NCBI GenBank assembly: GCA_035559535.1
Contig: DATMBG010000006.1
Location: forward strand, 1 to 64,000
Origin: Candidatus Limnocylindrales bacterium
GTDB lineage: Bacteria > Moduliflexota > Moduliflexia > Moduliflexales > JAUQPW01
Direction of reading: 5' to 3'
DNA length: 64,000 nt
How positions within the stretch are numbered: the stretch's first letter is position 1; each line of letters starts with the position of its first letter. Made by a program: the position numbers and the translations under genes. A model generated the notes under the pieces. That model did not search any database, had not been told where the DNA came from, and was given only the letters and a program-made list of their open reading frames with translations. Of this stretch, positions 4,047-64,000 are shown in pieces.

Positions 4047-4053
4047 CTTCCAT

Positions 4054-6828: not shown

Positions 6829-6864
6829 TGTTCTTATTTATTGTCGGTTGTCCGTTGCCGGTTG

Positions 6865-9270: not shown

Positions 9271-9275
9271 TTCTT

Positions 9276-10079: not shown

Positions 10080-10121
10080 AGACCTTCAGGGTTTTAAAAA
10101 TCTGAGAGATCCGTAAAGGAT

Positions 10122-15655: not shown

Positions 15656-15672
15656 ATTGCAGGAGTAAGGAA

Positions 15673-15768
15673 GTGTGGAAGTGTGGGGGTATGGGGGTAT
15701 GGGAGTGTGGAAGTGTGGGAGAATAAGTACTTATATTCCCATACCCCCACACTCCCATACCCCCATAT
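15673..15768. repeat. Octamer tandem repeat island, palindromic (GTRTGGRR)
   Basis: Six consecutive 8-bp units of consensus GTRTGGRR run from 15673. After a centre containing AATAAGTACTTAT, the same units appear in reverse orientation to about 15768. The island lies between livK and livH. An open frame through it (from 15683) adds a meaningless Tyr/Pro/His-rich leader to LivH. Confidence 0.85.
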
Positions 15769-15793
15769 ATTCTACCTTTATTCAGTCAGCGCA

Positions 15794-16669: not shown

Positions 16670-16683
16670 TTTTGCCATTTTAT

Positions 16684-16705
16684 CTATCTGCCTGCTGGCA
16701 GATAG
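16684..16705. other. Intercistronic hairpin livH-livM
   Basis: A perfect 9-bp stem (CTATCTGCC / GGCAGATAG) with loop TGCT and no T-tract. It is the first of several similar spacer hairpins on this strand. Confidence 0.6.
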
Positions 16706-16756
16706 AAACCAGGATCATCTATTATCTCCTTTGCCTATGGTCAATAGAGGCAGTAA

Positions 16757-23326: not shown

Positions 23327-25027
23327 ATGCAGCCCTATAAAGTACTCGTTATTGGAATGGATGGAGCAACTTTTGATCTCATTTTACCTTGGACGGCCGA
23401 TAATCGGTTACCCAACCTGGCTTCCTTAATTCAAAAAGGAACCAGATCCTTTCTTAGATCTACGATTCCGCCCATGACTCCGCCGGCCTGGGCTTCTTTT
23501 TTTACCGGTAAAAATCCGGGTAAGCATGGAGTTTTTGACTTTATCGAACTAAAACCCGGAAGCTACGACTTTCGTTTCACGAACGGTGCTTCGGTTCAAG
23601 CCAAATCCCTATGGAGTCTGTTAAGCGAGGCTCGCAAAAAAGTTGGGGTTATCAATGTTCCCATGACCTATCCCCCTGAGGAAGTAAACGGGTATTTGAT
23701 TTCGGGATTGGATGCCCCGGATGAAAAAAGCCGGTTCACCTATCCGGGTGAACTTTACAAGATCCTGAAGGAGGCCATTGGTGATTACCAGATTGATATT
23801 CGACATCTAGGTAATATGCGAGGAGATAAAGAACGTGACCTGACCCTGGAGGCCTTCCATGAGATTGAAGAACGACGGGGAGCCGCTGTCCGATTTCTCA
23901 TGGAGAAGTATCCGGCCGATTTGACCGTAGTTGTCTTTAACGCAACCGACCAGGTTCAACACCATTTCTGGCATTACATGGATCCTCAACACCCTCAGCA
24001 TGATCCCATAGGGGCCAGGAAATATGGTCAGGCTATTTTGGATATTTATCGGTGTGTGGACAGGGAAATCGGCAAACTGCTCCAGAGCCTCTCTGAAGAT
24101 ACCATTGTTTTAGTCATCTCCGATCATGGGGCCGGGGCTACCAGCAACCTGGGGCTTTATTTAAACCATTATTTACAGGAAATAGGTTTACTCCGATTCG
24201 AAAGTAGATCTCTTTCTAAGAATTGGCTACATCAGGGTGCCGAAAAAGTGGATAAACTTCTACGGGGGACCCTTTCATCTAAGCAAAAGGCCCGGTTAGC
24301 TAAACTCTTTCCCCAACTGCGTACGAAGTTGGAATCCTGGGCCACGGCTCCTCTAGATTGGGAGTCGACCCGGGCTTATGTTAACGAAGCTTATATCTTC
24401 TCGCCGGGTATTTGGGTCAATTTGAAAGGTAAAAGACCCCGGGGAACTGTGGAACCCGGCAAAGATTATGAAAACCTGATTCAGTTTCTTATTGAGAAAC
24501 TCTATGAACTAAAAGATCCTGATACAGGGCAGCAGGTCATAAAAAAGGTTTATCGCAAAGATGAGATCTACCAGGGTCGCTATATCGATCAGGCTCCGGA
24601 TCTGATCCTTTCCTGGTGGGAGGAGAATAGTTTTACGGTCAAGGCCAGTCAGCCTGAGCGAAAAGGACTTCCCATTCTGGAACGAGATCTGGGCCCCATC
24701 GTAGGAGGTCGAGATTTGAGTGGGGCTCATCGATTACATGGGGTTTTGATTATGAGTGGAGGACCCATCAAGCAAGGTCTTTCTCTGAAGGAAACTCAAA
24801 TTCTGGACGTAGCTCCCACAATCCTTTATTTGATGGGAATGCCGGTTCCAGGAGATTTTGATGGACGTATCCTGACCGAAGCCATCGAAGAAGATTTCTT
24901 ACGGGAAAATCCCCCCCAATATGGACGAGATCTGGCATCTCCCGATGAACGGTCGGGTACCGGTTATTCAGAAGAAGATATGGAGAAAATTCGGGAACGA
25001 CTCCAGGGCATAGGATACTTAGATTAA
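23327..25027 (+). CDS. Alkaline-phosphatase-superfamily phosphodiesterase/pyrophosphatase (NPP-like)
   Basis: A 566-residue metal-dependent hydrolase of the type I phosphodiesterase/nucleotide pyrophosphatase group. Metal and nucleophile positions are present: D12 in VIGMDGATFD, Thr51 in PPMTPPAWASFFTGKNPGKHG, the DQVQHHFW and ISDHGAG metal ligands, and a late His (AHRLHGVLIM). There is no signal peptide or membrane helix, so it appears cytoplasmic. The natural substrate is unknown; nucleotide-sugar or PAPS-related compounds are possible given cysC next door. It ends EEDMEKIRERLQGIGYLD, the tail shared with APS kinase. A structured leader candidate precedes it. Confidence 0.88.
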   Translation: MQPYKVLVIGMDGATFDLILPWTADNRLPNLASLIQKGTRSFLRSTIPPMTPPAWASFFTGKNPGKHGVFDFIELKPGSYDFRFTNGASVQAKSLWSLLSEARKKVGVINVPMTYPPEEVNGYLISGLDAPDEKSRFTYPGELYKILKEAIGDYQIDIRHLGNMRGDKERDLTLEAFHEIEERRGAAVRFLMEKYPADLTVVVFNATDQVQHHFWHYMDPQHPQHDPIGARKYGQAILDIYRCVDREIGKLLQSLSEDTIVLVISDHGAGATSNLGLYLNHYLQEIGLLRFESRSLSKNWLHQGAEKVDKLLRGTLSSKQKARLAKLFPQLRTKLESWATAPLDWESTRAYVNEAYIFSPGIWVNLKGKRPRGTVEPGKDYENLIQFLIEKLYELKDPDTGQQVIKKVYRKDEIYQGRYIDQAPDLILSWWEENSFTVKASQPERKGLPILERDLGPIVGGRDLSGAHRLHGVLIMSGGPIKQGLSLKETQILDVAPTILYLMGMPVPGDFDGRILTEAIEEDFLRENPPQYGRDLASPDERSGTGYSEEDMEKIRERLQGIGYLD

Positions 25028-48179: not shown

Positions 48180-49763
48180 TCATTTTTCCAGAGGCGATTC
48201 ATTTAAAACTTCTATTTTTGCCGACCTCAGGATCTGGAGGGTTTCTCGATATAATCGCCTGGCTTCAGGCAGGTTATTACGATGGAGATGATCTATGATT
48301 TGGTTCAGTTTGGTTTGAGCTTCAAGAAGTTGATCCCCAACCTGGGGATAGTCTTTCTGGAGGAGATCCAGGGTATTTCTGGCTTCCTGGAATTCCTCTA
48401 TGGATTTAGGTAAGTCCCGGGTAGAAAGTGCCCTTCTAGCCTGGCGCAATTGTTGGGTTAGTTGGCGAATTGTAGAAGTGGAAAGTTCATTGCCAAGGGG
48501 TTTCGATCCTTCCAGGGTGGAGGTTCCATTATCTATTGTTTCTGAGCTTTTACTTGTACCGGACTTTTGAAATTCAGAAGATTTGACCGAGACCCTTTGA
48601 AGTTGGGTAGCTGCAAATTGGATATCTTCCCTAAACTCTGGATTAACCACATCAAACTCATAAATTTCCAGGTAACTCGCTCCTCCTGCAAGGCCATTTT
48701 CTATAGCTTTTCGTAAGTTCCCCACCCGATTGGCCGTACCCAACATCTGAAATCCAATCGTCGTTTGCTTACTGAACTGTTGCAGGACCTTTAACCTTTC
48801 GGGGGAGGTATTAGCACTTAACCAATTTCCCTGGATAAACAACCGGCTCTTATAGGTCCCGAGGCCATAATCGATAATTTGTTGAGGAAGCTCCCGGTTT
48901 CCTAGGATTTGAAAAGCCATGTTTAAGACAATCGCTTTATTTGGAAAGGCCCTGGCATAGGCATCTATGCATTGTTTCCAGGCATCGAGTAGTTTAGCCG
49001 GGGTATACCCAAAACTTTCCCAGTCTTTTTCTTTACCTCGGAGATGGAATTCCACTGAAGTAACGGTAGGCCCTGCAACGGCAACCGCATAAAGGTTAGG
49101 ATTGGCCCGGTATCGCTTTCCCAGATTATCGATAAAATTTGTCCACTTAGCTAAATAAACGGGATCCCAGGGGACCGGTAGAGAAGGCAGTCTATCCTGA
49201 ACAGGGGGTCCACCATCTGGAAGCCCTTGTTCATTGCCTATAAAGGTCTCTCCTCTATCAGGGTTGGAAGAAAAGCGCTTTTTGCGGGGAGAACGTCCCC
49301 TATCGTCTGGTCGCTGAACCCTTTGAGCGCCCGCTTGATAGACCCACTCGGGTGTAAAAACACCGGGGTGAACCCGAAGGATAACTTTTTTATTGTATTG
49401 GGCGGCCGTTTGAAAAACTTCATCGAGATAACTCCAGACATAATGACCTTCCACAGGCTCTAGGGTCCACCATTTAACCCGGGGACTTATTCCTCGAACA
49501 TACGGAGAATTTAACCCTGTTGGATTAAAAGGTTCCTCCATTTTATTCAGGACATAAACCCCATAACCTTCGCTAGAGATGCCACTCATCTCCGTTCCTT
49601 CTTCCTGCGGTGAGTCTGTCGAATCCATAAAAGCTAAAGAAGAAGTAGGGACACAGCAGGTTGTGCCGGTACGGGATGAAGGGACAGAAGGTAGAAAACA
49701 AAAAACAAAAAGTAAAGAAAAGAAGAAAAAAAACCTCTTTCTGATTAATAACCAAAATTGCAT
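48180..49763 (-). CDS. Secreted TIM-barrel (GH42-like) protein with helical C-terminal domain
   Basis: A 527-residue protein with a very hydrophobic signal sequence (RKRFFFFFSLLFVFCFLPSV). Residues about 70-390 resemble a beta-galactosidase/GH42-like barrel (GISPRVKWWTLEPVEGHYVWSYLD, KKVILRVHPGVFTPEWVYQAG, YAVAVAGPTVTSVEFHL, KAIVLNMAFQI). I cannot assign the two catalytic acids with certainty. Residues about 430-520 are a helical, TPR-like region (RQARRALSTRDLPKSIEEFQEA). It is probably an exported glycan-binding or glycan-cleaving protein. It precedes the PhoD-like gene by 16 bp, suggesting co-expression. Confidence 0.65.
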   Translation of the reverse strand: MQFWLLIRKRFFFFFSLLFVFCFLPSVPSSRTGTTCCVPTSSLAFMDSTDSPQEEGTEMSGISSEGYGVYVLNKMEEPFNPTGLNSPYVRGISPRVKWWTLEPVEGHYVWSYLDEVFQTAAQYNKKVILRVHPGVFTPEWVYQAGAQRVQRPDDRGRSPRKKRFSSNPDRGETFIGNEQGLPDGGPPVQDRLPSLPVPWDPVYLAKWTNFIDNLGKRYRANPNLYAVAVAGPTVTSVEFHLRGKEKDWESFGYTPAKLLDAWKQCIDAYARAFPNKAIVLNMAFQILGNRELPQQIIDYGLGTYKSRLFIQGNWLSANTSPERLKVLQQFSKQTTIGFQMLGTANRVGNLRKAIENGLAGGASYLEIYEFDVVNPEFREDIQFAATQLQRVSVKSSEFQKSGTSKSSETIDNGTSTLEGSKPLGNELSTSTIRQLTQQLRQARRALSTRDLPKSIEEFQEARNTLDLLQKDYPQVGDQLLEAQTKLNQIIDHLHRNNLPEARRLYRETLQILRSAKIEVLNESPLEK

Positions 49764-49778: not shown

Positions 49779-50774
49779 TTATTCTATATGGGTAAGTCCT
49801 GTCGCAAGCAATAATTGAATCACAGGAACTCCATTTTCAACTCTTTCCTTCTCCATACGTGTCCAATAAAGCCAGCTATCTGGATATCGCGCAACATAAT
49901 ACTCCAATTGTGTGAAGTAATTCTGGACAATTCCTTTGAAGACTTCCTCATCTTCTTGCTGGACTTTGATAGGTTCCTTAAAAACAAAATGATGGGTTCC
50001 GTCTTCCCGTCGGATTACAAAGCTTAGAACTATAGGCGCACCGCTTTTTGCAGCCATAAGAACAGGTCCAAGCGGCGCTTTCAGCTTGACATTAAAGAAG
50101 TTGACTAAGGTGAATTTTTTTCCTAGAGGTCCGTCCCCGGCTGCACTGATAACTCGATTTTCTGCCAGGGATCGATACTGGTTTATAACTGCAGAAACCA
50201 GGGATTTTGAGGAGGTAATAATCTGGAAATTTCCTCGTTCTTTCCAGATCGAAGATCTGAGGTCTAAGATTTTCTGGGAAATCCAGGGACTTGCCCCTTT
50301 CGTCCCTGTTAATACCAGGATAGGACTCATTTTGTAGCCTTTATAGGTCAGATAAGTAGCTATCAGATTGGCAGAGCTAAAATGAAAATTTACTCCTACA
50401 ACACCTTTCCCTTCGGCTAAGGCCTGATCTAGATAACTTATCCCTTCATTGCTACAGGCGTCAAAATATTTTTTATAATCCTCTCTCGCCATAATAAAGA
50501 GATCGGTATAGGCCTTTTGTTTATGGATATAAATACCCCGTACAACGGCTTTTTTCTCCTGAAAATTAAGTTTATCTCCCAAAACCATATCCAGATTATG
50601 GATTATTTTACGTTTTTGTTTAGAAGGGACAAACAAGTAATGGATACTACCCAGTAAGGTGGCTATCTGATAACCGATCCGGAAAGGTAAAACTTGAATT
50701 AGCCAGCGATAGGGATAATAAACCAGAAGTAAAGAAAAATCCTTAAGATAGCGCTTTATGGGGAATTCTTTCAT
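49779..50774 (-). CDS. LpxL/HtrB-family acyltransferase, variant motif (copy 1)
   Basis: A 331-residue protein of the lipid A/lysophospholipid acyltransferase family, with an N-terminal membrane helix (LLLVYYPYRWLIQVLPFRIGY) and GKGVVGVNFHFSSANL where the family has the HX4(D/E) catalytic dyad. Here the motif reads H131-FSSA-N136, so the acidic partner is replaced by Asn. Later blocks (AAGDGPLGKKFTLVNFFNVKLKAPLGPVLMAAKSGAPIV) match the family. It could be an acyltransferase with altered chemistry or an acyl-binding protein. Closely related copies lie at 50802-51773 and 57776-58756. Confidence 0.85.
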   Translation of the reverse strand: MKEFPIKRYLKDFSLLLVYYPYRWLIQVLPFRIGYQIATLLGSIHYLFVPSKQKRKIIHNLDMVLGDKLNFQEKKAVVRGIYIHKQKAYTDLFIMAREDYKKYFDACSNEGISYLDQALAEGKGVVGVNFHFSSANLIATYLTYKGYKMSPILVLTGTKGASPWISQKILDLRSSIWKERGNFQIITSSKSLVSAVINQYRSLAENRVISAAGDGPLGKKFTLVNFFNVKLKAPLGPVLMAAKSGAPIVLSFVIRREDGTHHFVFKEPIKVQQEDEEVFKGIVQNYFTQLEYYVARYPDSWLYWTRMEKERVENGVPVIQLLLATGLTHIE

Positions 50775-50801
50775 AGAGTTTGACTGAGCTCACCAGAGGT
50801 T

Positions 50802-51773
50802 TTAATCGGTTATTCCGGGAATTACCTGCATTACAGGAACTCCATTCTCAAAACCTTCCTTCTCCATGCGTGCCCAATGGGTCCAATAATCGGGATGCTG
50901 GGAAATATAATGCTCTAAATGCCGGATATATTCCTGAACAGCTCCTTTTAAGATTTCTTCCTCCTCTCCCTCGACCTGAATCGGTTCTTTAAAGACGAAA
51001 TATTGCGTAAAGTCTTTTTGCAAAATCACAAAACCAGGAACTATCCCTGCGCCGCTTTTTGCAGCCATGAGGACAGGTCCCAGAGGAACTTTTAGTTTTA
51101 CATTAAAAAAGTCTACCAGAGTAAATCTTTTCCCAAGTGCCCCATCTCCCGTTGCATCGATAATTTGATTCTGCTTTAAGCACTCATACTGAATTCTAAC
51201 TAAAGACAACAGAGATTTCAAGGAGGTAATAACTTGATAATTTCCCCGTGTTTTCCAGATGGAACTTTTAATACCCAGGACCTTTTGTGAAACCCAGGGG
51301 CTGGTATCCTTGAGATGGGTGGGCAATACCAGTAAAGGAGTTATTTTATAACCTCGATAAGCTAAATAGGCTGAAACCAGATTAACAGGACCAAAATGAA
51401 AGGTGACGACTACTAAACCTTTACCTCGAGATAAAACTTCGTCTATATAATTCAGACCTTCTACCTTACAGGCCCGGAAATACTTCCCATAATCTTTTCT
51501 TCCCATAATAAAAAGATCCATGAGGATCCTGTGTTTAGTAGCATAAAAACGTTTTAAAATAGTTTTCTTTTCTTGAAGGTTAAACTTATCGCCAAAAATG
51601 AGATTTAAGTTAGTAAGAATTTGATGTTTTTGTTTAGGGGAAGCGAAGAGATATTGGATATTTCCCAATAAAGTAGCCAGCTTATAGCTAATCCGAAAGG
51701 GTAAAGTCTGGATTAGCCAACGATAGGGAAAATAAACCAGCAAAAGCAGGAGGTTTTTGAAATACAGCTTCAT
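50802..51773 (-). CDS. LpxL/HtrB-family acyltransferase, variant motif (copy 2)
   Basis: A 323-residue paralogue of copy 1, located 27 bp upstream of it on the same strand. I set the start at 51773 (MKLYFKNLLLLLVYFPYRW), aligned with the other copies. The longer frame from 51932 only adds repeat-derived residues, including a translated palindrome. The dyad position reads H126-FGPV-N131, again lacking the acidic residue. The family block ATGDGALGKRFTLVDFFNVKLKVPLGPVLM is conserved. Tandem duplication with copy 1 is evident; function is as uncertain as for copy 1. Confidence 0.84.
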   Translation of the reverse strand: MKLYFKNLLLLLVYFPYRWLIQTLPFRISYKLATLLGNIQYLFASPKQKHQILTNLNLIFGDKFNLQEKKTILKRFYATKHRILMDLFIMGRKDYGKYFRACKVEGLNYIDEVLSRGKGLVVVTFHFGPVNLVSAYLAYRGYKITPLLVLPTHLKDTSPWVSQKVLGIKSSIWKTRGNYQVITSLKSLLSLVRIQYECLKQNQIIDATGDGALGKRFTLVDFFNVKLKVPLGPVLMAAKSGAGIVPGFVILQKDFTQYFVFKEPIQVEGEEEEILKGAVQEYIRHLEHYISQHPDYWTHWARMEKEGFENGVPVMQVIPGITD

Positions 51774-51892
51774 GTTAATGATCCGGAGCGCCCTTGAACC
51801 CGGTACCCGGTTTTGTGAAATCGTATATGCACCTGTATAACAGAGGTTACGGCTTAAGACCTTAACACAGGCACAGCATGCTGTGTCCCTGC

Positions 51893-51965
51893 TACTTTGT
51901 AAAGTTAATGCTGTGTAACGCTCTGCCCTCACCCCAGGCCCCTCTCCTACGCTGCGGAGAGGGGT
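51893..51965 (-). repeat. Dispersed 75-bp palindrome-plus-tail repeat, copy B
   Basis: Read on the minus strand it matches copy A across both the CCCCTCTCC...GGAGAGGGG palindrome and the TTAACTTTACAAAGTA tail, with substitutions in between. Confidence 0.8.
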
Positions 51966-52068
51966 GAGAAGATCTCTGGGTTAGCTTCTGGTGAACCCCT
52001 TCTTCCGAAGCTTCGGGAGAGGGGTGCTTTGGGAGTTGGCCTGTTTAAGGACTAAATCTCTATTCGTC

Positions 52069-52235
52069 CTATTCGATGAGATTCGGTCTCAACAAATTGT
52101 TCTGCCACCCCTTGTACCCATATAACCGATCATTTGGATGCTCGGCAATCCCATAGGCGAGTTAGATAAATACTCCCGGGCAATACCCTTTAGCCTACCT
52201 GATCGGTCAAGTGCATAATTCCTGCCAGAAGTGGA
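52069..52235 (-). pseudogene. Decayed 3' end of a further LpxL-like acyltransferase
   Basis: Minus-strand translation gives LKGIAREYLSN in one frame and LAYGIAEHPNDRLYGYKGW then a stop (52069-52071) in the next. Joined, these align with the C-terminal stretch of the neighbouring acyltransferases (FKGIVQNYFTQLEYYVARYP). One frameshift (near 52153-52167) and upstream stops break the frame. No more 5' portion is readable, so it is a short relic. Confidence 0.5.
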
Positions 52236-52355
52236 TTTTTATGGATTGCCTACTTCATAAGTTCAAGGGTAAGAATCGAAATCTTCGGGAACTTTGAACG
52301 TGTCTTTAAGGCAAGGGGAAAATGGAGGTTTTAAGTGGGATCGGAGAGATCAATG

Positions 52356-52411
52356 AAAAAGCCTAACTTCCTCCCTCCTGTCCTACAGAACCAGGAAGAT
52401 GAAAGTTAGGC
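52356..52411 (-). terminator. Rho-independent terminator of the Cys-rich protein gene
   Basis: On the minus strand GCCTAACTT pairs with AAGTTAGGC (plus positions 52403-52411 and 52361-52369), with additional inner pairing, directly followed by TTTTT (52360-52356). It lies 29 bp beyond the stop codon of the 120-residue secreted protein. Confidence 0.8.
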
Positions 52412-52439
52412 CGATAAAAGCTACTTTATAAAGGTTGAA

Positions 52440-52802
52440 TTATCGTGGAACACATAAACAAACGAAGTTTTTCTGGGCATACTCTTTCCCGTTAAAAGGC
52501 ACCAGGCAATTAAAGGTATCAGTTACATTCTTACCGGGAACATAACCTGAAGAATATTGTCTTCTCCCCCTCTTTGCTGATGTGGGTACACCGCAGACAA
52601 ATAGCTGAGCCGTTGCACCTGACTTACTTCCTTCAGCTCCCGCATAAACCGGAGCCTGACCGGCTCTGGTACAGGTCGTATCGCAATTGGTTCCAGGAGG
52701 TGCAGCTAACCAACTATAGTTGGCAGCCCAAACCAGATCTTCTACTAAAGAAATTCCTGTCAGTAAAACAGCTAAAGAGGCAATTAAAATTTTCGTTTTC
52801 AT
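52440..52802 (-). CDS. Small secreted six-cysteine protein, copy 1
   Basis: A 120-residue protein with a signal peptide (1-27, ending LVWA). The mature part has six Cys (40, 44, 70, 99, 115, 117) in the order NCDTTC, FVCGV, NCLVPF, VCLCVPR, suggesting three disulfides in a compact extracellular domain. GTNCDTTC, SGYVPGKNV and PFNGKE are the conserved blocks shared with the copy at 52992-53348. I do not recognise the family and assign no function. It has a good ribosome site (GGGAGG) and its own terminator. Confidence 0.85.
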   Translation of the reverse strand: MKTKILIASLAVLLTGISLVEDLVWAANYSWLAAPPGTNCDTTCTRAGQAPVYAGAEGSKSGATAQLFVCGVPTSAKRGRRQYSSGYVPGKNVTDTFNCLVPFNGKEYAQKNFVCLCVPR

Positions 52803-52935
52803 AGCTAACCTCCCTTTTTAGAGAAAAATTATAAAAACTGCCCACCTTCGATCCCTTTATAAGAAGACGCACAAATAACTTTAAGGTTTCTAGGCTGATA
52901 AAGAAATGTCTCCTGGGCTTACTTCTCATTAACCT

Positions 52936-52969
52936 CCCTTGTAGGAAAAAATTTCTTTCCCTACAAGGG
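52936..52969. other. 10-bp hairpin between the two Cys-rich genes
   Basis: CCCTTGTAGG (52936-52945) pairs with CCTACAAGGG (52960-52969). It lies in the spacer downstream of the second Cys-rich gene, without a T-tract on the minus strand. It may cause partial termination or stabilise the upstream message. Confidence 0.55.
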
Positions 52970-52991
52970 ATTTCCTCCTTAGAAGGATAAA

Positions 52992-53348
52992 TTATCGAGG
53001 AACACACAAGCAAACAAAGCTTTGTATGACGTTTTCTTTTCCATTAAAAGGTACATTGCAGGTCGTTGTTGCCACTACATTCTTACCGGGGACAAATCCG
53101 GAGGAATATTGTTGTCTCTGTCTCTGATATATTTTAACATCCACGCCACAGACGTAAAGTTGCGTAGCTGCACCTGATTTGCTCCCCTCGGTTCCAGAAT
53201 ACACCGCGACCTGACCGGCTCTTCCGCAAGTGGTATCACAGTTGGTTCCCTGGGCAGGTATCCAGGTGTAATTGGCGGCTAAAGTACTCTGGGAGAATAA
53301 AAAAATTCCTACCACCAGCAAAGAGGGTACTAAAACTTTGGTTTTCAT
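52992..53348 (-). CDS. Small secreted six-cysteine protein, copy 2
   Basis: A 118-residue tandem paralogue of the downstream gene: signal peptide 1-24 (STLA before ANYTW) and six Cys at 37, 41, 67, 97, 113, 115 in identical spacing pattern. The central part (VKIYQRQRQQYSS) is Arg/Gln-rich, as in copy 1 (KRGRRQYSS). AAGGAGG lies 6 nt before the ATG, and a good promoter lies about 80-110 bp upstream. High predicted expression and small size suggest an abundant secreted protein; function unknown. Confidence 0.86.
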   Translation of the reverse strand: MKTKVLVPSLLVVGIFLFSQSTLAANYTWIPAQGTNCDTTCGRAGQVAVYSGTEGSKSGAATQLYVCGVDVKIYQRQRQQYSSGFVPGKNVVATTTCNVPFNGKENVIQSFVCLCVPR

Positions 53349-53427
53349 AGGAGCCTCCTTTTTATCCGAAAGGTTAACAGTTGTTTTACTAACTTTTGTT
53401 AATTAAACGGATTATTACGGAGGCTAG

Positions 53428-53456
53428 ATACTAACGTTTTTTTATTCTTCCGTCAA
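53428..53456 (-). promoter_or_regulatory. Sigma-70-type promoter for the Cys-rich protein genes
   Basis: On the minus strand TTGACG (53456-53451), a 17-bp A-rich spacer, and TAGTAT (53433-53428). This is five of six and four of six matches to the consensus with ideal spacing. It is correctly placed for the gene starting at 53348. Confidence 0.55.
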
Positions 53457-53499
53457 TCAAAAAGTTTATAAATTTTCTCCGGGTAACGGTATTTTTTCT

Positions 53500-55512
53500 T
53501 CAAAACCGCCAGGTCATTGACGCAAAAACCAATCTATCCAGGACGGCAACTTCACTTTCAGCATGGGGATCAACAAGATTTTGACCCGTTACGGCGACTT
53601 CAAGGGTATCATTCAAGAAAGTTTTAGCCACTCGAACATCCAATCGGGTGTATGGAGGCAAGGAAATAGTTGGATCGGAGAGGGGCGCAGTATGATCCAC
53701 GTAGCTTAACTGAAGATTGGTCGAAAACCCATTTGGAAACTTAGCCCTCAATCCCAGATTGACTTTATGCCGGGGCGTTGACTTATCCAGATCTCCGGGG
53801 CGCAAAGCGCCCTCATCGCTAATATCAATAAACTCATAGGTATAATTGGCTCTTCCCTGTAACCAGTCTGTTAAAGGGGTCATGACCTCTAATTCAACTC
53901 CCTTGGAAAAACCATTAAATCCATCACTGATAAAAGTAGCTCGTGTGACCCCTGGAGGAGGTGGTGCAGGAGCGCTCCTGGGGAATTTGTCGATATCATT
54001 ATAGTAGAGTTCTACGTTAAGGCGGAGTTTATCCCACAGATAAGTCCGGTAGCCTATTTCATAGGCGGTATTAATTGCAGAATCCAGGTTTGGGTTGGAA
54101 AGTCGAGCAACGATGGCACCGGTTGGTAGAGTTACCCGGGTTTCATTAAAGACCTCAAATTGGGAGGGGGGTAGGATGGCCTGTCCCATAGCAAATCGAA
54201 AGGTATGATTCTTCCAGGGAGTATAAAGGAGAGTTCCTCGGGGGGCCACATCGGTTCCAGAAAGAGTATTATCCTGAACCCGTATTCCGGCAACCAAAGT
54301 TAACTGATCTGATGGTTTGTATTCATCCTGAATATAGAAGCCCAAGGCGCTATCCTGGCGACTGTGGATATTACCCTGGGGAGCATCCAAAAAATCCAGA
54401 ATATAATCTCCACCGAATACCAATTGATGTTGGGGGAGGAAAGAGAAGTTATATTGAAATTCTGCACCCAAAGTATCCATATCAAACTCTCGAATCCCGG
54501 AGACGGGATTCAAGAAGATGAACTTTGCGTTGGTGACATTCCAGTATCCTTGAACAAAAAGAGTTGAAGTGGGAGAAAACCGATTTTCATACCAACTCTG
54601 TAGGAAAAAACTTTCGAACTCTTCATGACCCGGTTCTCCGGCCGGATTTGCAGGAACGGGAAAACTTCCGGATCGGTCTCCGGTAAGATAACCTGTGGAG
54701 AGATGAAAATCTGAATCTTCAGACAGGTGATATTTAGCCCGAAAGGTCGCCTTGGGAATACGTTTTGCGTCCTCTAAGGGAGTTCCCTGCAGGCTCTTAT
54801 CGAAACCGGTATCCTGTTCATAACTGGTGGAGAGCCGATAGGAAAATTTATCATTATACACCTGATCATAAATGAGCGTTGCGAGGCCTAATTCCTCATT
54901 ACCTCCAAGGGTAGAGGAGAGAGTCCATCCCTTATACTTTTCTGGATCTTTCGTAATGATATTAATAACCCCTGTAAAGGCATTAATCCCATACAAGGTA
55001 GAACCGGGACCTCGAAGGATTTCAATGCGCTCGATATCCTCTAAAGAAAGGGGGAAGGTTCTCCAGAAAGTTCCACCCTGTTGATGGAGAAAAATAATAC
55101 GTCGATCGATCATCACGAGCATGGTTCTGGCGGTTTCCGAAGCAAATCCACGGGCTGACACTACAGAGCGAGGCCCATCCAGGGTTATAACATCCATACC
55201 CGGGATCATCCTGAAGAGATCTATAACATTCGTAGCTCCAGACTGTCGAATATCGTCAGCGGTGATAACGGAAACTGCTGAAGGGGATTCACTTAGATGC
55301 TGGAGTCTCCGGGAACCGATGGCAACAAGTTGCTCAACACGAAAAAACTCTTCTTCCCGGAAGATCGATCTATCCTCAGAAATAACCTGAGCGAGTATCT
55401 GGGGAGTTAAGAGATAAGAGATAAAAGATAAAAGAAAAAAAGTTCCTTCTAACAGCCGGACCCAAAAGGTCTCGCATTTCCAAGTAGAATGGCCTGGTCG
55501 TATGCTTTTCAT
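53500..55512 (-). CDS. TonB-dependent outer-membrane receptor
   Basis: About 670 residues. I start at 55512 (MKSIRPGHSTWK), giving a signal segment (GTFFLLSFISYLLTPQILAQ); the longer frame begins in a palindromic repeat. The plug domain reads AVSVITADDIRQSGATNVIDLFRMIPGMDV, then ARGF and RIEILRGPGSTLYGINAFTGVINIITK. The barrel ends ASMTWRF with the terminal aromatic used by outer-membrane proteins. No canonical TonB box was located with certainty. The ligand is unknown; the plug resembles vitamin/siderophore-type receptors. It shows the host is a diderm. Confidence 0.92.
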   Translation of the reverse strand: MKSIRPGHSTWKCETFWVRLLEGTFFLLSFISYLLTPQILAQVISEDRSIFREEEFFRVEQLVAIGSRRLQHLSESPSAVSVITADDIRQSGATNVIDLFRMIPGMDVITLDGPRSVVSARGFASETARTMLVMIDRRIIFLHQQGGTFWRTFPLSLEDIERIEILRGPGSTLYGINAFTGVINIITKDPEKYKGWTLSSTLGGNEELGLATLIYDQVYNDKFSYRLSTSYEQDTGFDKSLQGTPLEDAKRIPKATFRAKYHLSEDSDFHLSTGYLTGDRSGSFPVPANPAGEPGHEEFESFFLQSWYENRFSPTSTLFVQGYWNVTNAKFIFLNPVSGIREFDMDTLGAEFQYNFSFLPQHQLVFGGDYILDFLDAPQGNIHSRQDSALGFYIQDEYKPSDQLTLVAGIRVQDNTLSGTDVAPRGTLLYTPWKNHTFRFAMGQAILPPSQFEVFNETRVTLPTGAIVARLSNPNLDSAINTAYEIGYRTYLWDKLRLNVELYYNDIDKFPRSAPAPPPPGVTRATFISDGFNGFSKGVELEVMTPLTDWLQGRANYTYEFIDISDEGALRPGDLDKSTPRHKVNLGLRAKFPNGFSTNLQLSYVDHTAPLSDPTISLPPYTRLDVRVAKTFLNDTLEVAVTGQNLVDPHAESEVAVLDRLVFASMTWRF

Positions 55513-55563
55513 CAACTTATTAAGTAAAGAAAGACACTTAAATTCAGAAAGGCAGTAACCCTC

Positions 55564-55592
55564 GTAGGGGCATGGCGGTGCCATGCCCCTAC
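55564..55592. repeat. Dispersed GTAGGGGC palindrome, copy 2
   Basis: A 13-bp perfect stem GTAGGGGCATGGC / GCCATGCCCCTAC with 3-nt loop, in the 110-bp gap between the TonB receptor start and the ketosynthase stop. Confidence 0.85.
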
Positions 55593-55621
55593 ATAATCGG
55601 TTAGTAGCCAAGGGAACTTAT

Positions 55622-57424
55622 TTATCTCCGTTTGCCAGGTTCCAGCCAGCAGCGTTCCCGCTGCCAGGGATAAGAGGGCAGTCCGACGCACTGCCCGTCG
55701 GTTGGATAGAGCCAGCTCCAGTCGATGGAATACCCCAAGGTATAGAGGGCACCCAGAGACCGAAGCATGGTCATTCGGTCTTCTTTTCCATCGAGAGGGG
55801 ATCGATCCATGATTCCTTTCTGGTCATTAGAGTTTGAAGTCTTTCGGCCTGAAGAGATATTCGGGTGAACTTCTCCCCGAAGAAAAATCTCCAGACACCG
55901 GATGAGTTCCTCCCGCGAGCGAAATACCAGGGCCAGGCGGTAGTCGTGATGACTTCGCCGTACACTGGCCGTATAACACAGATCTCGTAACGAAACGGCA
56001 GAGCCAGTATTTCCAACTCCTAAAAAGCTCTGATATGCCTGTACAAGAGCCTGAAGAGCTTTCTGGCTGTGTGCGGATAACGGAAGCAGGTACGGTGGAT
56101 CCAAAGGGAGGTCTTTCTCCTGTTTATAGGCTTCTGGAACTCCTGGAGTTCCCTCTAAAACGGCATGGGCGTTGGTTCCCCCGAAGCCAAAGGAACTCAC
56201 TCCGGCGAGAGTTGGACCGGATTCCTGGGGCCAGGGGCCCAGAGTTTGTTGAACTAGCAGTAGGAGCTCCTCAAAAGGGATATGTGGATTAGGTTTGTGG
56301 AAATGTAAGCTCGGGGGGAGCTCGCGGTGTCTAAGGGCCAATACGGTTTTAACCAGACCGGCGATACCTGCTGCGGTTTCCAGATGTCCAATATTGGTCT
56401 TGACTGAACCTATAGCACAATAGTGTCCGGGAGGACGGTCTATTGCAAGGACAGTCCCCAGTGCCTGGGCTTCAATGGGATCCCCCAAGAGGGTTCCTGT
56501 ACCATGGGCTTCAATATACTGAACCTGACCCGGTGAAACTTCGGCCTGCCGGTAAGCTTCTCGCAACACCTCTTCCTGAGCCCACCGGTTAGGAGCCGTG
56601 AGTCCGTTGGTGCGTCCGTTATTATTGATAGCACTTCCCCGAATAACAGCATAAATCGGATCATGATCGGTCAGGGCGTTTGACAGGGGTTTTAAGACCA
56701 CCATACCGGCCCCTTCACCACGAACATAGCCATTTGCCCCTGCATCAAAAGCCTTGCAACGACCCTCGGGAGATAGAGCCCTTGCTTTACTGAAGCCAAT
56801 GGTAAGTTCTGGTGATAGGATGACGTTTACCCCCCCGGCCAGGGCAAGGGAAGATTCATGGGTCCAGAGACTTTGGCAGGCAAGATGGACGGCAACCAGG
56901 GAGGAGGAGCAGGCCGTATCTATGGAAATACTGGGTCCTCTAAAATCAAAGAGATAAGAAATACGATTCGATGCAATGGATAATAAGTTACCGGTATTCG
57001 TGTAAGCATTGATGAAATCAGGATTGCTTAATTGCATCCGACCGTAATCTCCGGGTCCAATTCCAATAAATACCCCCGTTCGGGTACCTGCCAGCCGATC
57101 TACCACCTGTCCGGCATCTTCGAGGGCTTCCCAGGCTACCTCCAACAAGAGTCGTTGTTGGGGATCCATTCGAGCAGCTTCCCATGAGAGGATCTTGAAA
57201 AAGTGATAATCAAATTGATCTATCTGCTCCAGAAAGCCCCCCCAACGCGTGTTCATTTTGCCCGGTGCTTTAAGATCGGGGTGGTAAAAGGCTTGCAAAT
57301 CCCAACGATCCGCCGGAACTTCTGTGACGGCATCTACTCCGTCCCGGAGAAGCCGCCAGAAAGCCTCTAGATTTCCGGCACCCGGGAAACGACAAGCCAT
57401 ACCGATAACCGCGATAGGTTCCAT
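55622..57424 (-). CDS. Polyketide-type ketosynthase with linker, AT domain absent
   Basis: A 600-residue type I PKS-like ketosynthase: PIAVIGMACRFPGA at the start, C172 in DTACSSS, H307 in EAHGTGT, H347 in KTNIGHLE, so the active-site triad is intact. The KS-to-AT linker follows (about 430-520). Then, without an acyltransferase domain, comes the post-AT linker GYSIDWSWLYP and LPSYPWQRERCW (582-593). An AT has thus been lost or is supplied in trans. The protein would extend an acyl chain held on one of the two carrier proteins. It is the last gene of the lipid cluster, 27 bp after an ACP gene. Confidence 0.92.
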   Translation of the reverse strand: MEPIAVIGMACRFPGAGNLEAFWRLLRDGVDAVTEVPADRWDLQAFYHPDLKAPGKMNTRWGGFLEQIDQFDYHFFKILSWEAARMDPQQRLLLEVAWEALEDAGQVVDRLAGTRTGVFIGIGPGDYGRMQLSNPDFINAYTNTGNLLSIASNRISYLFDFRGPSISIDTACSSSLVAVHLACQSLWTHESSLALAGGVNVILSPELTIGFSKARALSPEGRCKAFDAGANGYVRGEGAGMVVLKPLSNALTDHDPIYAVIRGSAINNNGRTNGLTAPNRWAQEEVLREAYRQAEVSPGQVQYIEAHGTGTLLGDPIEAQALGTVLAIDRPPGHYCAIGSVKTNIGHLETAAGIAGLVKTVLALRHRELPPSLHFHKPNPHIPFEELLLLVQQTLGPWPQESGPTLAGVSSFGFGGTNAHAVLEGTPGVPEAYKQEKDLPLDPPYLLPLSAHSQKALQALVQAYQSFLGVGNTGSAVSLRDLCYTASVRRSHHDYRLALVFRSREELIRCLEIFLRGEVHPNISSGRKTSNSNDQKGIMDRSPLDGKEDRMTMLRSLGALYTLGYSIDWSWLYPTDGQCVGLPSYPWQRERCWLEPGKRR

Positions 57425-57451
57425 TTTCTCCCGTCCTCTATAGCTTTTCCA

Positions 57452-57757
57452 TTAAGTACGGGCGATCTGCTGGTCGCTCCTACCGTTCCAGGATTGTTCC
57501 AGGATCAGATTAATCAGGTCTTCAACGGTACTAACTTTTGTAAAATCCACCGAATCCAGCCGGATAGAAAATGCTTTTTCTATAACAATAATCATCTCTA
57601 CCGTATCCAGGGATTTGATACCCAGATCTTCTTGCAAGCGGGTATCCAAAGTAAGGAATTCAATATCTTCGGGATTCAAGATATCCCTTAAAAGGGTCCG
57701 AAGATTTTCAAAAACCTCTTCCTTGGATAAGGTTTGATTTTGTTTTACAGATGACAT
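57452..57757 (-). CDS. Acyl carrier protein
   Basis: A 101-residue carrier with a Ser for 4'-phosphopantetheine in DLGIKSLDTVEMIIVIEKAF (the usual LGxDSL motif, here with Lys before Ser). The length and acidic helices are those of a freestanding ACP. It lies between an LpxL-like acyltransferase gene (18 bp) and the ketosynthase gene, and is the most likely partner of both. No phosphopantetheinyl transferase is encoded in the window. Confidence 0.92.
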   Translation of the reverse strand: MSSVKQNQTLSKEEVFENLRTLLRDILNPEDIEFLTLDTRLQEDLGIKSLDTVEMIIVIEKAFSIRLDSVDFTKVSTVEDLINLILEQSWNGRSDQQIART

Positions 57758-57775
57758 GTAGCCCCTTCCTTTCTA

Positions 57776-58756
57776 TTAAGTTTCAAAAGGTTTTCGTGTA
57801 ACCAGCCGTATCAAAGGTATACCACCCTCAAACCCTTCTATCTCCATCCGATTCCAATAACCCCAATGGGCCGGATATCGGGAAACATAATGTTCCAGAC
57901 GTTGAATGTATCTCTGAACGGCCATCTTCAAGGTTTCTTCCTCTTCATTAGCTACTTGAATCGGTTCTTCAAAGATAATATGGTGCGCATTATCTTTTCG
58001 TCGGATTACAAAGTTCGGAACCAGGGCTGCTCCGGTTTTTGCGGATAAAAGAGCAGGTCCAAGGGGAACTTTCAGTTTTACATTGAAAAAATCGACCAAG
58101 ATAAATCTTTCCCCCAGAGCTCCATCTCCGGCTGCACTGACAATATAGTTCTGTCTTAGATGCTGATATTGGGCTACAACCATGTAGGTAAGAGATTTCA
58201 GGGAAGAAAAAATCTGAAAATTCCCGCGTTCTTTCCAAATAGAATGCTTGATATTTAGAACTTGTTGGGAGAGCCAGGGATTAACTCCTTCGATAGGAGA
58301 CTGCAGGACCAGAAAACCGACGATTTTTTTATAGCCCTTATAAAGGGCAAAAGGTGGAATCAGGTGAGCAAAACCAAAGTGGAAGTTGAGTCCGATCATT
58401 CCCTTTCCTTGGGATAAAACCTGATCCACATAATCCAGACCTTCTATACTGCAAATCTGAAGATAATTTTTGTAATCTTTTCTTCCCAGGATAAAAAGAT
58501 CCACAATCTTTTTCTGTTTCTCAACGTAGAAGTCCCGCAGGATGGTTTTTTTCTCCCGAGTATCGAGTTTATTACCGAAAACTAAATCAAGATAGGAAAA
58601 GAACCGATGTTTTTGATGGGAGGAAAGAACTTTGTATTGGATATTTCCAAACAGAGTAGCTATTGAACAGCTTATTTGAAAAGGTAAAGCCTGAACGAGC
58701 CAGCGGTAAGGGAAACAGACCAATAACAGAAAAAAGTCTTTAAAATATTGTTTCAT
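57776..58756 (-). CDS. LpxL/HtrB-family acyltransferase, variant motif (copy 3)
   Basis: A 326-residue paralogue of the genes at 49779 and 50802, embedded in the carrier-protein cluster. It has the same N-terminal helix (LLVCFPYRWLVQALPFQIS) and conserved block (AAGDGALGERFILVDFFNVKLKVPLGPALL). The catalytic-dyad position is H126-FGFA-H131: the acidic residue is replaced by His. Its placement between the P450 and ACP genes suggests it accepts the modified acyl-ACP and transfers the chain to a lipid or sugar, if it is active. Confidence 0.86.
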   Translation of the reverse strand: MKQYFKDFFLLLVCFPYRWLVQALPFQISCSIATLFGNIQYKVLSSHQKHRFFSYLDLVFGNKLDTREKKTILRDFYVEKQKKIVDLFILGRKDYKNYLQICSIEGLDYVDQVLSQGKGMIGLNFHFGFAHLIPPFALYKGYKKIVGFLVLQSPIEGVNPWLSQQVLNIKHSIWKERGNFQIFSSLKSLTYMVVAQYQHLRQNYIVSAAGDGALGERFILVDFFNVKLKVPLGPALLSAKTGAALVPNFVIRRKDNAHHIIFEEPIQVANEEEETLKMAVQRYIQRLEHYVSRYPAHWGYWNRMEIEGFEGGIPLIRLVTRKPFET

Positions 58757-60234: not shown

Positions 60235-60561
60235 CTAGGCTTTTCCAACTAAATATCGAGCAAGGACCTCAATGTTAGGATAATCATACACAAGGGTGGG
60301 AGGAAGTCGACATCCCAACCAGTCTTGTAACTCACCGGAGAGAATTGCGGCTTGCCTGGAATCCAGGCCATAATAAGCAAAAGGTTGTTGCACCTCAATA
60401 TCTTGAGGATCAACTTCTGTCAATTCAGAAAGCTTAGAGATTAACCAGGTTCGAATGGCTTCCTCATTTTGAGGTTGTTTTGGAGGATCTATCTGGTTGT
60501 TGGAGCCCTTTCCATGAGAAAAACCGGATGATTTACTATCTTTCGGATTTAGAATTCCCAT
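60235..60561 (-). CDS. PKS-type acyl carrier protein
   Basis: A 108-residue carrier with an unstructured N-terminal tail (about 1-32) and a PKS-like carrier domain: SELTEVDPQDIEVQQPFAYYGLDSRQAAILSGEL, whose Ser in GLDS bears the phosphopantetheine arm. It differs clearly from the ACP at 57452-57757, so the cluster uses two distinct carriers. It lies between the desaturase genes and the P450 gene. An AGGAGGGAAG site precedes the ATG. Confidence 0.9.
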   Translation of the reverse strand: MGILNPKDSKSSGFSHGKGSNNQIDPPKQPQNEEAIRTWLISKLSELTEVDPQDIEVQQPFAYYGLDSRQAAILSGELQDWLGCRLPPTLVYDYPNIEVLARYLVGKA

Positions 60562-60583
60562 TTTTTTCTTCCCTCCTGTGTAC

Positions 60584-60603
60584 GGGCGTACGGCCGTACG
60601 CCC
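60584..60603. repeat. Dispersed GGGCGTACGG palindrome, copy 3
   Basis: A perfect 20-bp palindrome followed by CCTAC, sharing the plan of the copies at 4383 and 55564. It lies between a desaturase gene and the carrier gene. Confidence 0.8.
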
Positions 60604-60621
60604 CTACTAGAAGGGGTAGCC

Positions 60622-61629
60622 TTAATAGCCCGTCTTAGCCTCCGCTATCATACGCGATGTGGGGATTTTAACATCCCAGGCAAGACCCACCATTTCAAAG
60701 ATGCGAATGATCCAGGCGCTTAAGTCGGGTTCCCACCATCTTAATCCATGTTTTGCTGAACTGGGGAAAGCGTGATGATTGTTTTGCAATCCTTCCCCAA
60801 ACGCGATGAGAGCGACCCAAAAATTATTCGCACTGTAATCATGGGTATTGAAAGGACGACTGCCAAAGGTATGGCCTATTGAACCAACAGCCCAACAGGC
60901 CTGGTTTACCAGGAAAATTCGAACGAGCCCTCCCCACAGAAATCCCTGGGAGATCCCGGTCCAAGTCCCCGTTAGAATCCCTCCTAAAACAGCCGGGATA
61001 ACTAAACCCAGGGATACCCAAACAAAATAGAGTTGATTTATCCTAAAGAGGGTAGGATCCCGAAGAAGATCCGGTGCGTAATAGAGGGAGTTGGCGATTT
61101 TATCGGAGAACATCCAACCTATATGGGCATGCCACAATCCCCGAACTAAGTTCCATATTCCTTTTCCCTGGAGATGGGGTGAGTGGGGGTCACCTGGCTG
61201 GTCACTGTAAGCATGATGGCGGCGATGGGAAGCTACCCAGAAGAGGATAGGGCCTTGAGCAGCCATAGAACCGAGGATGGCCAGGATGATCCGTAAGACT
61301 CTACCAGCTTGAAAGGCACGATGCGCAAAATAGCGGTGGAAGCCGACCGTAACACCTATCATGATGGCCGTATACATGCTGACGAGGATTCCCGCCTCTA
61401 CACGATCAATTCCATATTTCCAGGCTAAAATCATGGCTACAACAAACCCTAGAAAAGGTATGACTATCACCGCCAGCGCGATACTTCGTTGAAGTCTTCG
61501 GGCAAAAGGGCTTATGACTATGACTCCTGGAATCTTAGGTAAATTCGTAGAAGTTTTAAACGGGGGTCGGAAATTACTTTCACCTGATGAGGTAGTGGGT
61601 TTACTATTTTCTGAATTCTGGATTTCCAT
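60622..61629 (-). CDS. Acyl desaturase-like membrane di-iron protein with altered ligands
   Basis: 335 residues from ATG 61629, chosen because GGGAGG lies just upstream; an ATG 27 bp earlier also exists. It belongs to the acyl-CoA/acyl-lipid desaturase family, with His boxes HRYFAH (H98, H103) and HRRHH (H135, H138, H139) and four hydrophobic membrane segments. The third box reads QNNHH (Gln282 for the first His), and the NSxxH element reads GSIGH (Gly249 for Asn), so two of the usual di-iron ligand positions are lost. It may be inactive, structural, or catalyse a different reaction. The intact paralogue is upstream. Confidence 0.9.
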   Translation of the reverse strand: MEIQNSENSKPTTSSGESNFRPPFKTSTNLPKIPGVIVISPFARRLQRSIALAVIVIPFLGFVVAMILAWKYGIDRVEAGILVSMYTAIMIGVTVGFHRYFAHRAFQAGRVLRIILAILGSMAAQGPILFWVASHRRHHAYSDQPGDPHSPHLQGKGIWNLVRGLWHAHIGWMFSDKIANSLYYAPDLLRDPTLFRINQLYFVWVSLGLVIPAVLGGILTGTWTGISQGFLWGGLVRIFLVNQACWAVGSIGHTFGSRPFNTHDYSANNFWVALIAFGEGLQNNHHAFPSSAKHGLRWWEPDLSAWIIRIFEMVGLAWDVKIPTSRMIAEAKTGY

Positions 61630-61668
61630 TTTTCCTCCCTTCTCGATAGGATCCATTCTGGGTTTGAT

Positions 61669-62643
61669 CTAACGACTCTTTCTGGACTCTACGAGCATAC
61701 GCGCTGTGGGGACTTTGACATCCCAGGCTAAACCTATTCTCTCAAGGATACGGATAACACAACCATTCCAGTCAATCTGCCACCACTTTAACCCATGTCT
61801 GGCTGAGCCTGGGAAAGCATGGTGGTTATTGTGCCAACCTTCACCGAAGGCAAGAAGGGCAATCAAGAAATTGTTTCTACTTTCATCACGACTATGGAAG
61901 GGACGGGTACCACAAACATGGGTAATGGAGTTAACACTCCAGGTGGTATGGTGAACCAAAAAGGTCCGTATGAGTCCTCCCCATAAAAATCCCTGGAGGG
62001 CTCCTATCCAGGTCCCTGTCAGAATTCCACCCAGAAGAGTGGGAATAAGGAGGCCCAGGAACACCCAAACAAAATAAAGCCGATTAACTTTAAAGAGAAG
62101 AGTATCTCGAAGTAAATCGGGTATATAATGGCTCCAATCGGTAACTTCGTGGACAAATAGCCATCCGGTATGGGCATGCCATAGCCCACGGAGCAAACCG
62201 GAAATTCCATCCCCATGGAGATGAGGTGAATGAGGATCGCCTGATTGATCGCTGTAAGCGTGATGGCGCCGATGAATAGCTGCCCAAAAAAGGACAGGCC
62301 CTTGAGCAGCCATGGAACCGAGGATGGCAAGAATAACCCGTACTACCCGGTTGGTTTTGAAAGCACGATGGGAAAAATGCCGATGGAACCCCACTCCAAT
62401 TCCAATTATGGTGGCCGCGTACATACCGATGAGAAGACCTAACTCCACAAGACCCAGAGCATATCCCCAGAATAGAATAGTGGCAGCAAGGAACCCGAGA
62501 AAGGGCGTAATGACAACCACCAGGGCAATAGTTCGTTCGAACTTTTGGGCAGGTAAACTGGCCATTGCTATCCCAGGAAACTCAGATGGCTTTGAAGGGG
62601 TTTTAAATTTTGCCTGGCTTCCTAATTTAGTGACCTCTGACAT
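61669..62643 (-). CDS. Acyl-CoA/acyl-ACP desaturase (membrane di-iron)
   Basis: A 324-residue desaturase with a complete ligand set: HRHFSH (H87, H92), HRRHH (H124, H127, H128), N238 and H242 in NSITH, and HNNHH (H271, H274, H275). Family members introduce a cis double bond, and some (JamB-like) make a triple bond, in acyl chains attached to CoA, lipid or ACP. Carrier genes downstream suggest acyl-ACP here. It is the first gene of a probable operon, with AAAGGAGG 6 nt before the ATG, and precedes its altered paralogue by 39 bp. Confidence 0.94.
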   Translation of the reverse strand: MSEVTKLGSQAKFKTPSKPSEFPGIAMASLPAQKFERTIALVVVITPFLGFLAATILFWGYALGLVELGLLIGMYAATIIGIGVGFHRHFSHRAFKTNRVVRVILAILGSMAAQGPVLFWAAIHRRHHAYSDQSGDPHSPHLHGDGISGLLRGLWHAHTGWLFVHEVTDWSHYIPDLLRDTLLFKVNRLYFVWVFLGLLIPTLLGGILTGTWIGALQGFLWGGLIRTFLVHHTTWSVNSITHVCGTRPFHSRDESRNNFLIALLAFGEGWHNNHHAFPGSARHGLKWWQIDWNGCVIRILERIGLAWDVKVPTARMLVESRKSR

Positions 62644-63281
62644 GACTGGCCTCCTTTAGGTTTTCTTATTAAAAGGATTTTAATTGCAAAAATCACACTC
62701 TATCTAACCGATGGTCCACTTACTGCCTAAGGTATTGAGAGATTTTGATAGAAAAGATTTGTTTCAGGCAGTGTCCTATTAAACAGGAAAGTAACGAAAC
62801 ACCATACTTACTTAATCCCGTAGAGTAAGTCAACTGGAAAAATACGGAATAATTAAATTAGTTGGTATGAGGTTACTTAGATGCAAAGAGTGAACCATTT
62901 ATTTTAAGGGATAAAAGAAGGCTTATAGCTTATACCCATCCCTATTTCATGGGGTAATTATACGATCCTGGGAATTATAGGACTCCAGTAGGGGTAAATG
63001 TCAAACCGGCTCCTATTTATAGAAAACTTCTTGATACTACCTGTGGAAAGGAATTTTAAAAAGTTGAGATTTCAGTGGCATTCCTTGAGCTTCTAAACAG
63101 TAACCTTCGGTTTCCTGAAGACTGGAAAAAACTTTTCGCAGAAGCTATTTTTACAGGAATTTTATGGCTCTACTCCCTCACCCCCGGCCCCTTTCCTGAA
63201 GCCTGGGGAGAGGGGTATAAATAATTGTTCAAATTTAACTTTACAGAGTATGAGTTATCCCCTTCAATTCAGATACAGACT
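62644..63281. other. Promoter region of the desaturase operon, with dispersed repeat
   Basis: No gene recognised. It should contain the desaturase operon promoter, though no strong -35/-10 pair was found. ACTGCCT (62722-62728) and AGGCAGT (62766-62772) can pair or act as a binding site. Copy C of the dispersed repeat lies just beyond the end of the upstream ligase gene. Confidence 0.55.
63175..63250. repeat. Dispersed 75-bp palindrome-plus-tail repeat, copy C
   Basis: A CCCTCACCCCCGGCCCC...GGGGAGAGGGG palindrome, then a tail CAAATTTAACTTTACAGAGTA matching copies A and B. Here it lies just downstream of the acyl-AMP ligase stop. Confidence 0.8.
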
Positions 63282-64000
63282 TTACTCTTCCAGCACGTTT
63301 AGGCTTCCAGATAGAAATCCGGCCCGGCAGGCATAATGCTGGATTTTGCCACTGGAGGTTTTAGGAATGCTATTTGCTTTAAGTAGCAATACAGCATGAA
63401 TGTGCATTTCGTGATTTTCTACTACCGCCTGTCGAATGCTCCCAACTATTTCCTTGATGCTCCAACGTCTTAAATCATAGGAATGCTCCAGTTCGGCTAC
63501 AATAACGAGTCGTTCTTCACCATTCTGATCTATGGAAAATGCTGCACAGCAGCCCGGGCGTAAAGCCGGATGGCTCTGTTCCACGGTCTGTTCGATATCT
63601 TGAGGATAATAATTACGACCCCCTAGGATGATCAAATTCTTCAGACGACCCGTGACGAACAGCTCCCCCTTCTTCAAGAATCCTAAATCTCCTGTACGAA
63701 GAAAGGGGCCCTCACCGGTATCTGCCAGATAAGCCTTGAAGGTCTGCTTTGTCTCTTCGGAGCGATTCCAGTAGCCTTGAGCAACGCTGGGTCCTGATAC
63801 CCAAATCTCTCCCACCCGGTCAGGTGAACATAGGGTTAAGGATTCTGGATCGACAATAATAATCTTCTGACCCGGTAAAGATCGACCACACCCTATGAGT
63901 TTTTGGGTATCCTTTGTAGAACTATCGAGAGGGGATGCTTCTACTACCTGGTTCTGTTTTAGAGCAGTTCTCAGAACGCTGAGAACCGTGGGAAGGGTTC
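63282..64000 (-). CDS. Fatty acyl-AMP ligase (5' part outside window)
   Basis: The frame stays open to the window edge. Visible C-terminal part of an ANL-superfamily ligase: KLIGCGRSLPGQKIIIVDPE, VGEIWVSGPSVAQGYWN, LRTGDLGFLKKGELFVTGRLKNLIILGGRNYYPQDIE, and the lysine motif KTSSGKIQH. The GRNYYPQDIE element and wording around it are those of fatty acyl-AMP ligases, which activate fatty acids as adenylates and load them onto carrier proteins. It would feed the carriers encoded downstream. An earlier GTG (63815) is internal, not the start. Confidence 0.9.
   Translation of the reverse strand, partial: TLPTVLSVLRTALKQNQVVEASPLDSSTKDTQKLIGCGRSLPGQKIIIVDPESLTLCSPDRVGEIWVSGPSVAQGYWNRSEETKQTFKAYLADTGEGPFLRTGDLGFLKKGELFVTGRLKNLIILGGRNYYPQDIEQTVEQSHPALRPGCCAAFSIDQNGEERLVIVAELEHSYDLRRWSIKEIVGSIRQAVVENHEMHIHAVLLLKANSIPKTSSGKIQHYACRAGFLSGSLNVLEE

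Follow-up and report, generated by a model that had tools for sequence, protein, structure and literature searches.

Three LpxL-like acyltransferase paralogues lacking the HX4 acid retain a block-3 aspartate that aligns with the catalytic acid of PatA and LpxM

Is the catalytic dyad of an LpxL-like acyltransferase lost together with the acid of its HX4(D/E) motif, a motif often quoted as characteristic of LPLAT enzymes (PMC9597891)? The question is raised by three paralogous genes in a stretch of 64,000 nucleotides (nt) from Candidatus Limnocylindrales bacterium (assembly GCA_035559535.1, contig DATMBG010000006.1, positions 1 to 64,000; hereafter the window). All three genes lie on the minus strand: LPLAT-1 (49779..50774, 331 aa), LPLAT-2 (50802..51773, 323 aa from the ATG at 51773; the open reading frame lister began it too early, with a GTG at 51932) and LPLAT-3 (57776..58756, 326 aa). 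An earlier note, made from the letters of the window, held that the acid of the dyad was gone from all three copies and that they form a subfamily with changed chemistry rather than products of chance decay.

Re-reading of the reading frames confirmed the three block-1 motifs, which are HFSSAN in LPLAT-1, HFGPVN in LPLAT-2 and HFGFAH in LPLAT-3 where HX4(D/E) is expected. The block-1 catalytic His is present in all three paralogues (H131, H126 and H126), and the acid is missing, its place being taken by N136, N131 and H131 (codons AAT, AAT and CAC). What the earlier note overlooked is a block-3 Asp in a GDG motif (D214, D210 and D211), which is invariant across the three paralogues and stands 83, 84 and 85 residues after the His; loss of the acid thus holds for the HX4 position and fails for block 3. 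The paralogues share 52.5-59% pairwise identity, keep the family core, and score 63.7-74.4 bits against the Lip_A_acyltrans profile PF03279 (Pfam cut-off 22.3), which places them in the superfamily.

In characterised relatives, the His pairs with the block-3 acid. The carboxylate of E200 in PatA lies 2.8 A from ND1 of H126, the E200A mutant is inactive while D131A, altered at the HX4 Asp, retains 37% activity, and the authors suggest that HtrB and MsbB also use the block-3 acid (PMC4792965). In LpxM of Acinetobacter baumannii a bond of 2.6 A joins H122 to D192, whereas E127 of the HX4E motif is 7.6 A from H122 and ion-paired with R159 (PMC6286764). VexE carries a natural Tyr at HX4 and is active, Phe is tolerated there, and replacement of D532, the equivalent of PatA E200, removes most of the activity (PMC9597891).

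As judged by alignment of sequences and profiles, the block-3 acid of the PatA/LpxM-type dyad is present in the trio. HMMER placed the GDG Asp opposite PatA E200 with both the trio profile and a profile of the wider clade described below, and the latter also placed it opposite LpxM D192 (E = 4e-21 for PatA and 1e-16 for LpxM; chain numbering was converted to that of the papers with offsets of 4 for PatA 5f2t and 6 for LpxM, taken from the printed alignments). HHalign set H126, N131 and D210 of LPLAT-2 opposite H132, E137 and D200 of Escherichia coli LpxL with a probability of 100, and the same placement was obtained with five sequences. Because the His pairs with the block-3 acid in the solved relatives and the trio keeps that acid, loss of the dyad acid does not follow from the motifs, and neither does the step from a lost acid to changed chemistry. 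The earlier note had conceded that a nearby Asp or Glu in the catalytic position would speak against it, and such a residue is found at block 3, by sequence-profile alignment to proteins of solved structure rather than by superposition.

The altered motifs are real and conserved, and are neither error nor decay, because a genus-mate genome, the only one found, carries all three genes with identical motifs and the pairs are under purifying selection (ratios of nonsynonymous to synonymous substitution rates, dN/dS, of 0.092, 0.104 and 0.223, at 89-95% identity). A profile scan of genome contigs returned one locus. Five profile scans of viral contigs for further relatives or a deeper alignment found none, and a tblastn search of plasmids gave remote matches only (23-26% identity).

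To place the trio within the family, 93 distinct members were collected from 112 loci, which came from the window genome, from searches covering 97 and 385 genomes, and from stretches taken for follow-up; the sample is biased, the loci having come from the top of rankings by profiles that included the trio. The His was present in 93 of 93 homologues, a block-3 Asp or Glu in 91, and an HX4 acid in only 61, so the HX4 acid does not define the PF03279 family. In a quick tree from which the trait columns had been left out, the rows in which the block-3 acid is followed by Gly or Pro formed one branch of 23 rows, the trio included (Shimodaira–Hasegawa-like approximate likelihood ratio test 86), representing at least 10 of the 385 genomes as read from the handles. 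Within this clade the His and the block-3 acid are both invariant, and the HX4 position holds Gln in 11 rows, Asn in 4, His in 4, Glu in 2, Lys in 1 and Leu in 1. The tree requires six changes of the HX4 acid and one of the block-3 acid, and shows the HX4 acid to be a labile position. The view that the trio belongs to a subfamily and is not decaying by chance was therefore borne out, with Gln, Asn or His in 19 of the 23 rows and purifying selection in addition. The only two of the 93 homologues without a block-3 acid are related and come from genomes of one family code (locus L015, 1489-2415, and locus L108, 278-1201) with Lys or Arg at HX4 and Thr at block 3; they are better candidates than the trio for changed chemistry or inactivity.

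The Arg that partners the HX4 acid (R159 in LpxM, R169 in LpxL) was also followed. In the MAFFT columns, it was present in 59 of 61 rows with the acid and 7 of 32 rows without it, so that both residues occurred in 59 of the 93 rows, neither in 25, and 9 were discordant (P-value = 3e-14, Fisher test, but the rows are related by descent); the 21 rows with a DG block 3 comprised 19 with neither residue and 2 with both. HMMER alignment to PatA set a Glu of the clade opposite R164, in agreement with MAFFT that the Arg is missing, whereas HHalign gave a different register with the Arg column four residues upstream. A test on phylogenetically independent pairs yielded four pairs and no support for the link. 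Given the kinship of the rows, this result and the differing register, co-variation of the HX4 acid and the Arg is not claimed.

Taken on these grounds, we consider it quite probable that the three genes encode working acyltransferases of the LpxL/PatA fold, in an unnamed subfamily, which would use a dyad of His and block-3 Asp, would have remodelled the HX4 position as a separate site, and would serve a lipid pathway other than that of lipid A. The putative dyad (H126-D210 in LPLAT-2) would correspond to H126-E200 in PatA, H122-D192 in LpxM and H466-D532 in VexE. The His, tuned by the block-3 Asp, would deprotonate the acceptor hydroxyl, and the acyl group would pass from an acyl carrier protein (ACP), the presumed donor, to the acceptor. 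The HX4 residue would belong to a separate subsite, which makes an ion pair with Arg in LpxM and a structural contact in PatA and is Asn, His or Gln in most of the clade. The motifs, the alignment of the acid, the membership of the clade and the neighbourhood are observed; catalytic competence, the ACP as donor and the nature of the acceptor are inferred. Of the two acids, the one in block 3 proved the better marker among these homologues (91 of 93 against 61 of 93), so activity calls made on HX4 alone would misfile whole subfamilies.

Several points weigh against this reading. In E. coli LpxL, activity falls about 3000-fold in E137A, 1000-fold in H132A and 170-fold in R169A, but only about 15-fold in D200A, and in LpxM both E127 and R159 are critical (PMC6286764). 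The lipid A enzymes thus do need the HX4 Glu. Losing it could have larger consequences than is assumed here, and in the trio may mean a changed substrate site. An AlphaFold2 model of LPLAT-2 from five sequences was set aside at a predicted local distance difference test score of 38.6. The role of the trio in the surrounding cluster rests on adjacency, and LPLAT-2 and LPLAT-1, 666 nt from the preceding gene, may form a separate operon. Nor need the acceptor be a lipid made by the neighbours, because elsewhere members of the clade sit with radical-SAM/B12 and polysaccharide genes.

The order of damage in LpxL also speaks for the alternative of changed chemistry, by another mechanism or with the Asn or His itself as a new catalytic partner, as does the preference of the clade for hydrogen-bonding Gln, Asn or His at HX4. 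We regard it as unlikely: the His and the block-3 acid are invariant in the clade while HX4 ranges over Gln, Asn, His, Lys, Leu and Glu, and PatA D131A and the natural Tyr of VexE show function without the HX4 acid. Quite unlikely, too, is that the genes are extra LpxL or LpxM copies with relaxed motifs, acting as secondary acyltransferases of lipid A. Although the best curated family names are those of lipid A acyltransferases, the trio falls below the cut-offs of all curated NCBIfam profiles for them (best 78 bits against 248), a canonical LpxL (HFGNWE, 214 bits) lies elsewhere in the genome beside a gene that we take to be lpxK-like from a reading of its sequence, without a family call, and the neighbours of the trio are fatty acyl-AMP ligase (FAAL), polyketide synthase (PKS) and desaturase genes. 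That the three are inactive or binding-only pseudoenzymes, as the disappearance of one conserved family residue from every copy might suggest, is very improbable given their low dN/dS, their identity to the genus-mate and the retained His, block-3 acid and core.

PatA, a phosphatidylinositol mannoside (PIM) acyltransferase, is the best solved match of the clade profile (PDB 5f2t, 5oce and 7ojt) and shares the dyad, its HX4 residue being non-catalytic; it differs in keeping the HX4 Asp and its Arg partner, in using an acyl-CoA donor and in acting on PIMs (PMC4792965), and the trio lies below the cut-off of the PatA equivalog NF005919 (40.5-48.3 bits against 209). VexE, the Vi antigen C-6 beta-hydroxyacyltransferase, likewise lacks the HX4 acid, and is described as ACP-dependent and as running on His and block-3 Asp; compared with the trio by description only, it differs in an extra TPR region and in acting on UDP-GlcNAc. 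LpxL/HtrB and LpxM/MsbB belong to the same Pfam family and align at the His and block-3 Asp (LpxL H132 and D200), but they have the HX4 acid that the trio lacks.

The trio is embedded in a run of minus-strand genes. In order of transcription these are a membrane-fusion protein, a FAAL, two desaturases, ACP2, a cytochrome P450, LPLAT-3, ACP1, a ketosynthase and a TonB-type receptor, followed by two small secreted-looking proteins, LPLAT-2, LPLAT-1, a GH42-like protein and a PhoD/FG-GAP protein. The end of the window cuts the FAAL gene, so that only its C-terminal part (63282..64000) is included; on contig C6 the gene spans 63282-65108, and it resembles those of fatty acyl-AMP ligases, FadD32 among them. 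It is followed by two membrane fatty acid desaturases (61669..62643 and 60622..61656, both PF00487), the PKS-type carrier protein ACP2 (60235..60561), whose closest NCBIfam stretch is the N-terminal ACP of Pks13, a resemblance taken as a lead only, and the P450 (58816..60210, PF00067). ACP1 (57452..57757, PF00550), 18 nt downstream of LPLAT-3, is likely to be the carrier of the acyl donor. A free-standing ketosynthase of the sort seen in modular type I PKSs (55622..57424, PF00109 and PF02801) lies 27 nt downstream of ACP1, and the TonB-dependent receptor-like outer-membrane protein (53500..55611, PF00593 and PF07715) another 10 nt downstream. A weak GH42-like protein (48180..49763, PF02449 at 29.2 bits) follows LPLAT-1 after 15 nt. 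Gaps are 10-60 nt from the first-transcribed desaturase through the receptor and -23 to 27 nt from LPLAT-2 through the PhoD protein; wider gaps follow FAAL (638 nt) and precede LPLAT-2 (666 nt), so the genes probably form at least two transcription units. Scans for promoter-like and terminator-like signals came close to the shuffled expectation.

Because of this lipid-type cluster and the canonical LpxL elsewhere, the trio probably acylates something other than lipid A. The FAAL, desaturases, ACPs, P450 and ketosynthase, with the export and receptor genes, would form a dedicated lipid pathway in which the trio would attach modified acyl chains to a glycolipid or another lipid. Elsewhere, a radical-SAM/B12-related gene was found by BLAST clustering in 7 of 11 clade context loci of other genomes, with both domains in one protein by Pfam at each of the four loci scanned (L040, L042, L073 and L074), and polysaccharide flippase-like and phosphodiesterase-like genes lie near several clade members. 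A broader idea, which we hold tentatively and at somewhat below even chances, is that the clade has dropped the HX4-acid/Arg subsite, which has been proposed as a second dyad in LpxM, its members often carrying Gln, Asn or His in place of the acid and, in the Arg column, Glu or Trp, and would use a single His-Asp dyad on acceptors other than lipid A, beside radical-SAM/B12 and exopolysaccharide genes elsewhere and, here, in a FAAL-desaturase-ketosynthase pathway for a multiply acylated lipid. LpxM is proposed to have two dyads; the clade would offer natural enzymes with only one of these, in which the disputed part played by the HX4 Glu could be tested directly.

Further observations concern the surroundings. 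The FAAL, two desaturases and ACP in a row (60235-64000, and to 65108 on contig C6) recall a terminal-alkyne or alkene starter module; the gene order resembles the FAAL, membrane desaturase and ACP of the JamABC type (PMC4356899), again as a lead only, but differs in its two desaturases and the 638-nt gap after FAAL, and any acetylenase activity is hypothetical. The tandem small Cys-containing proteins at 52440-52802 and 52992-53348 have signal-like N-termini and weak DM9 similarity below the cut-off, and show the lowest dN/dS among the compared genes (0.04 and 0.07). Type I phosphodiesterase/nucleotide pyrophosphatase-like proteins occur in this genome at 23327-25024 of the window and at 6807-8861, 9024-11327 and 15386-17116 of locus L036, and similar genes are found in the vicinity of clade members at L040, L041 and L073. 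Locus L036 further encodes, at 3160-5490, a membrane-fusion protein of the RND type, in which repeated segments form a long internal run, as seen by eye.

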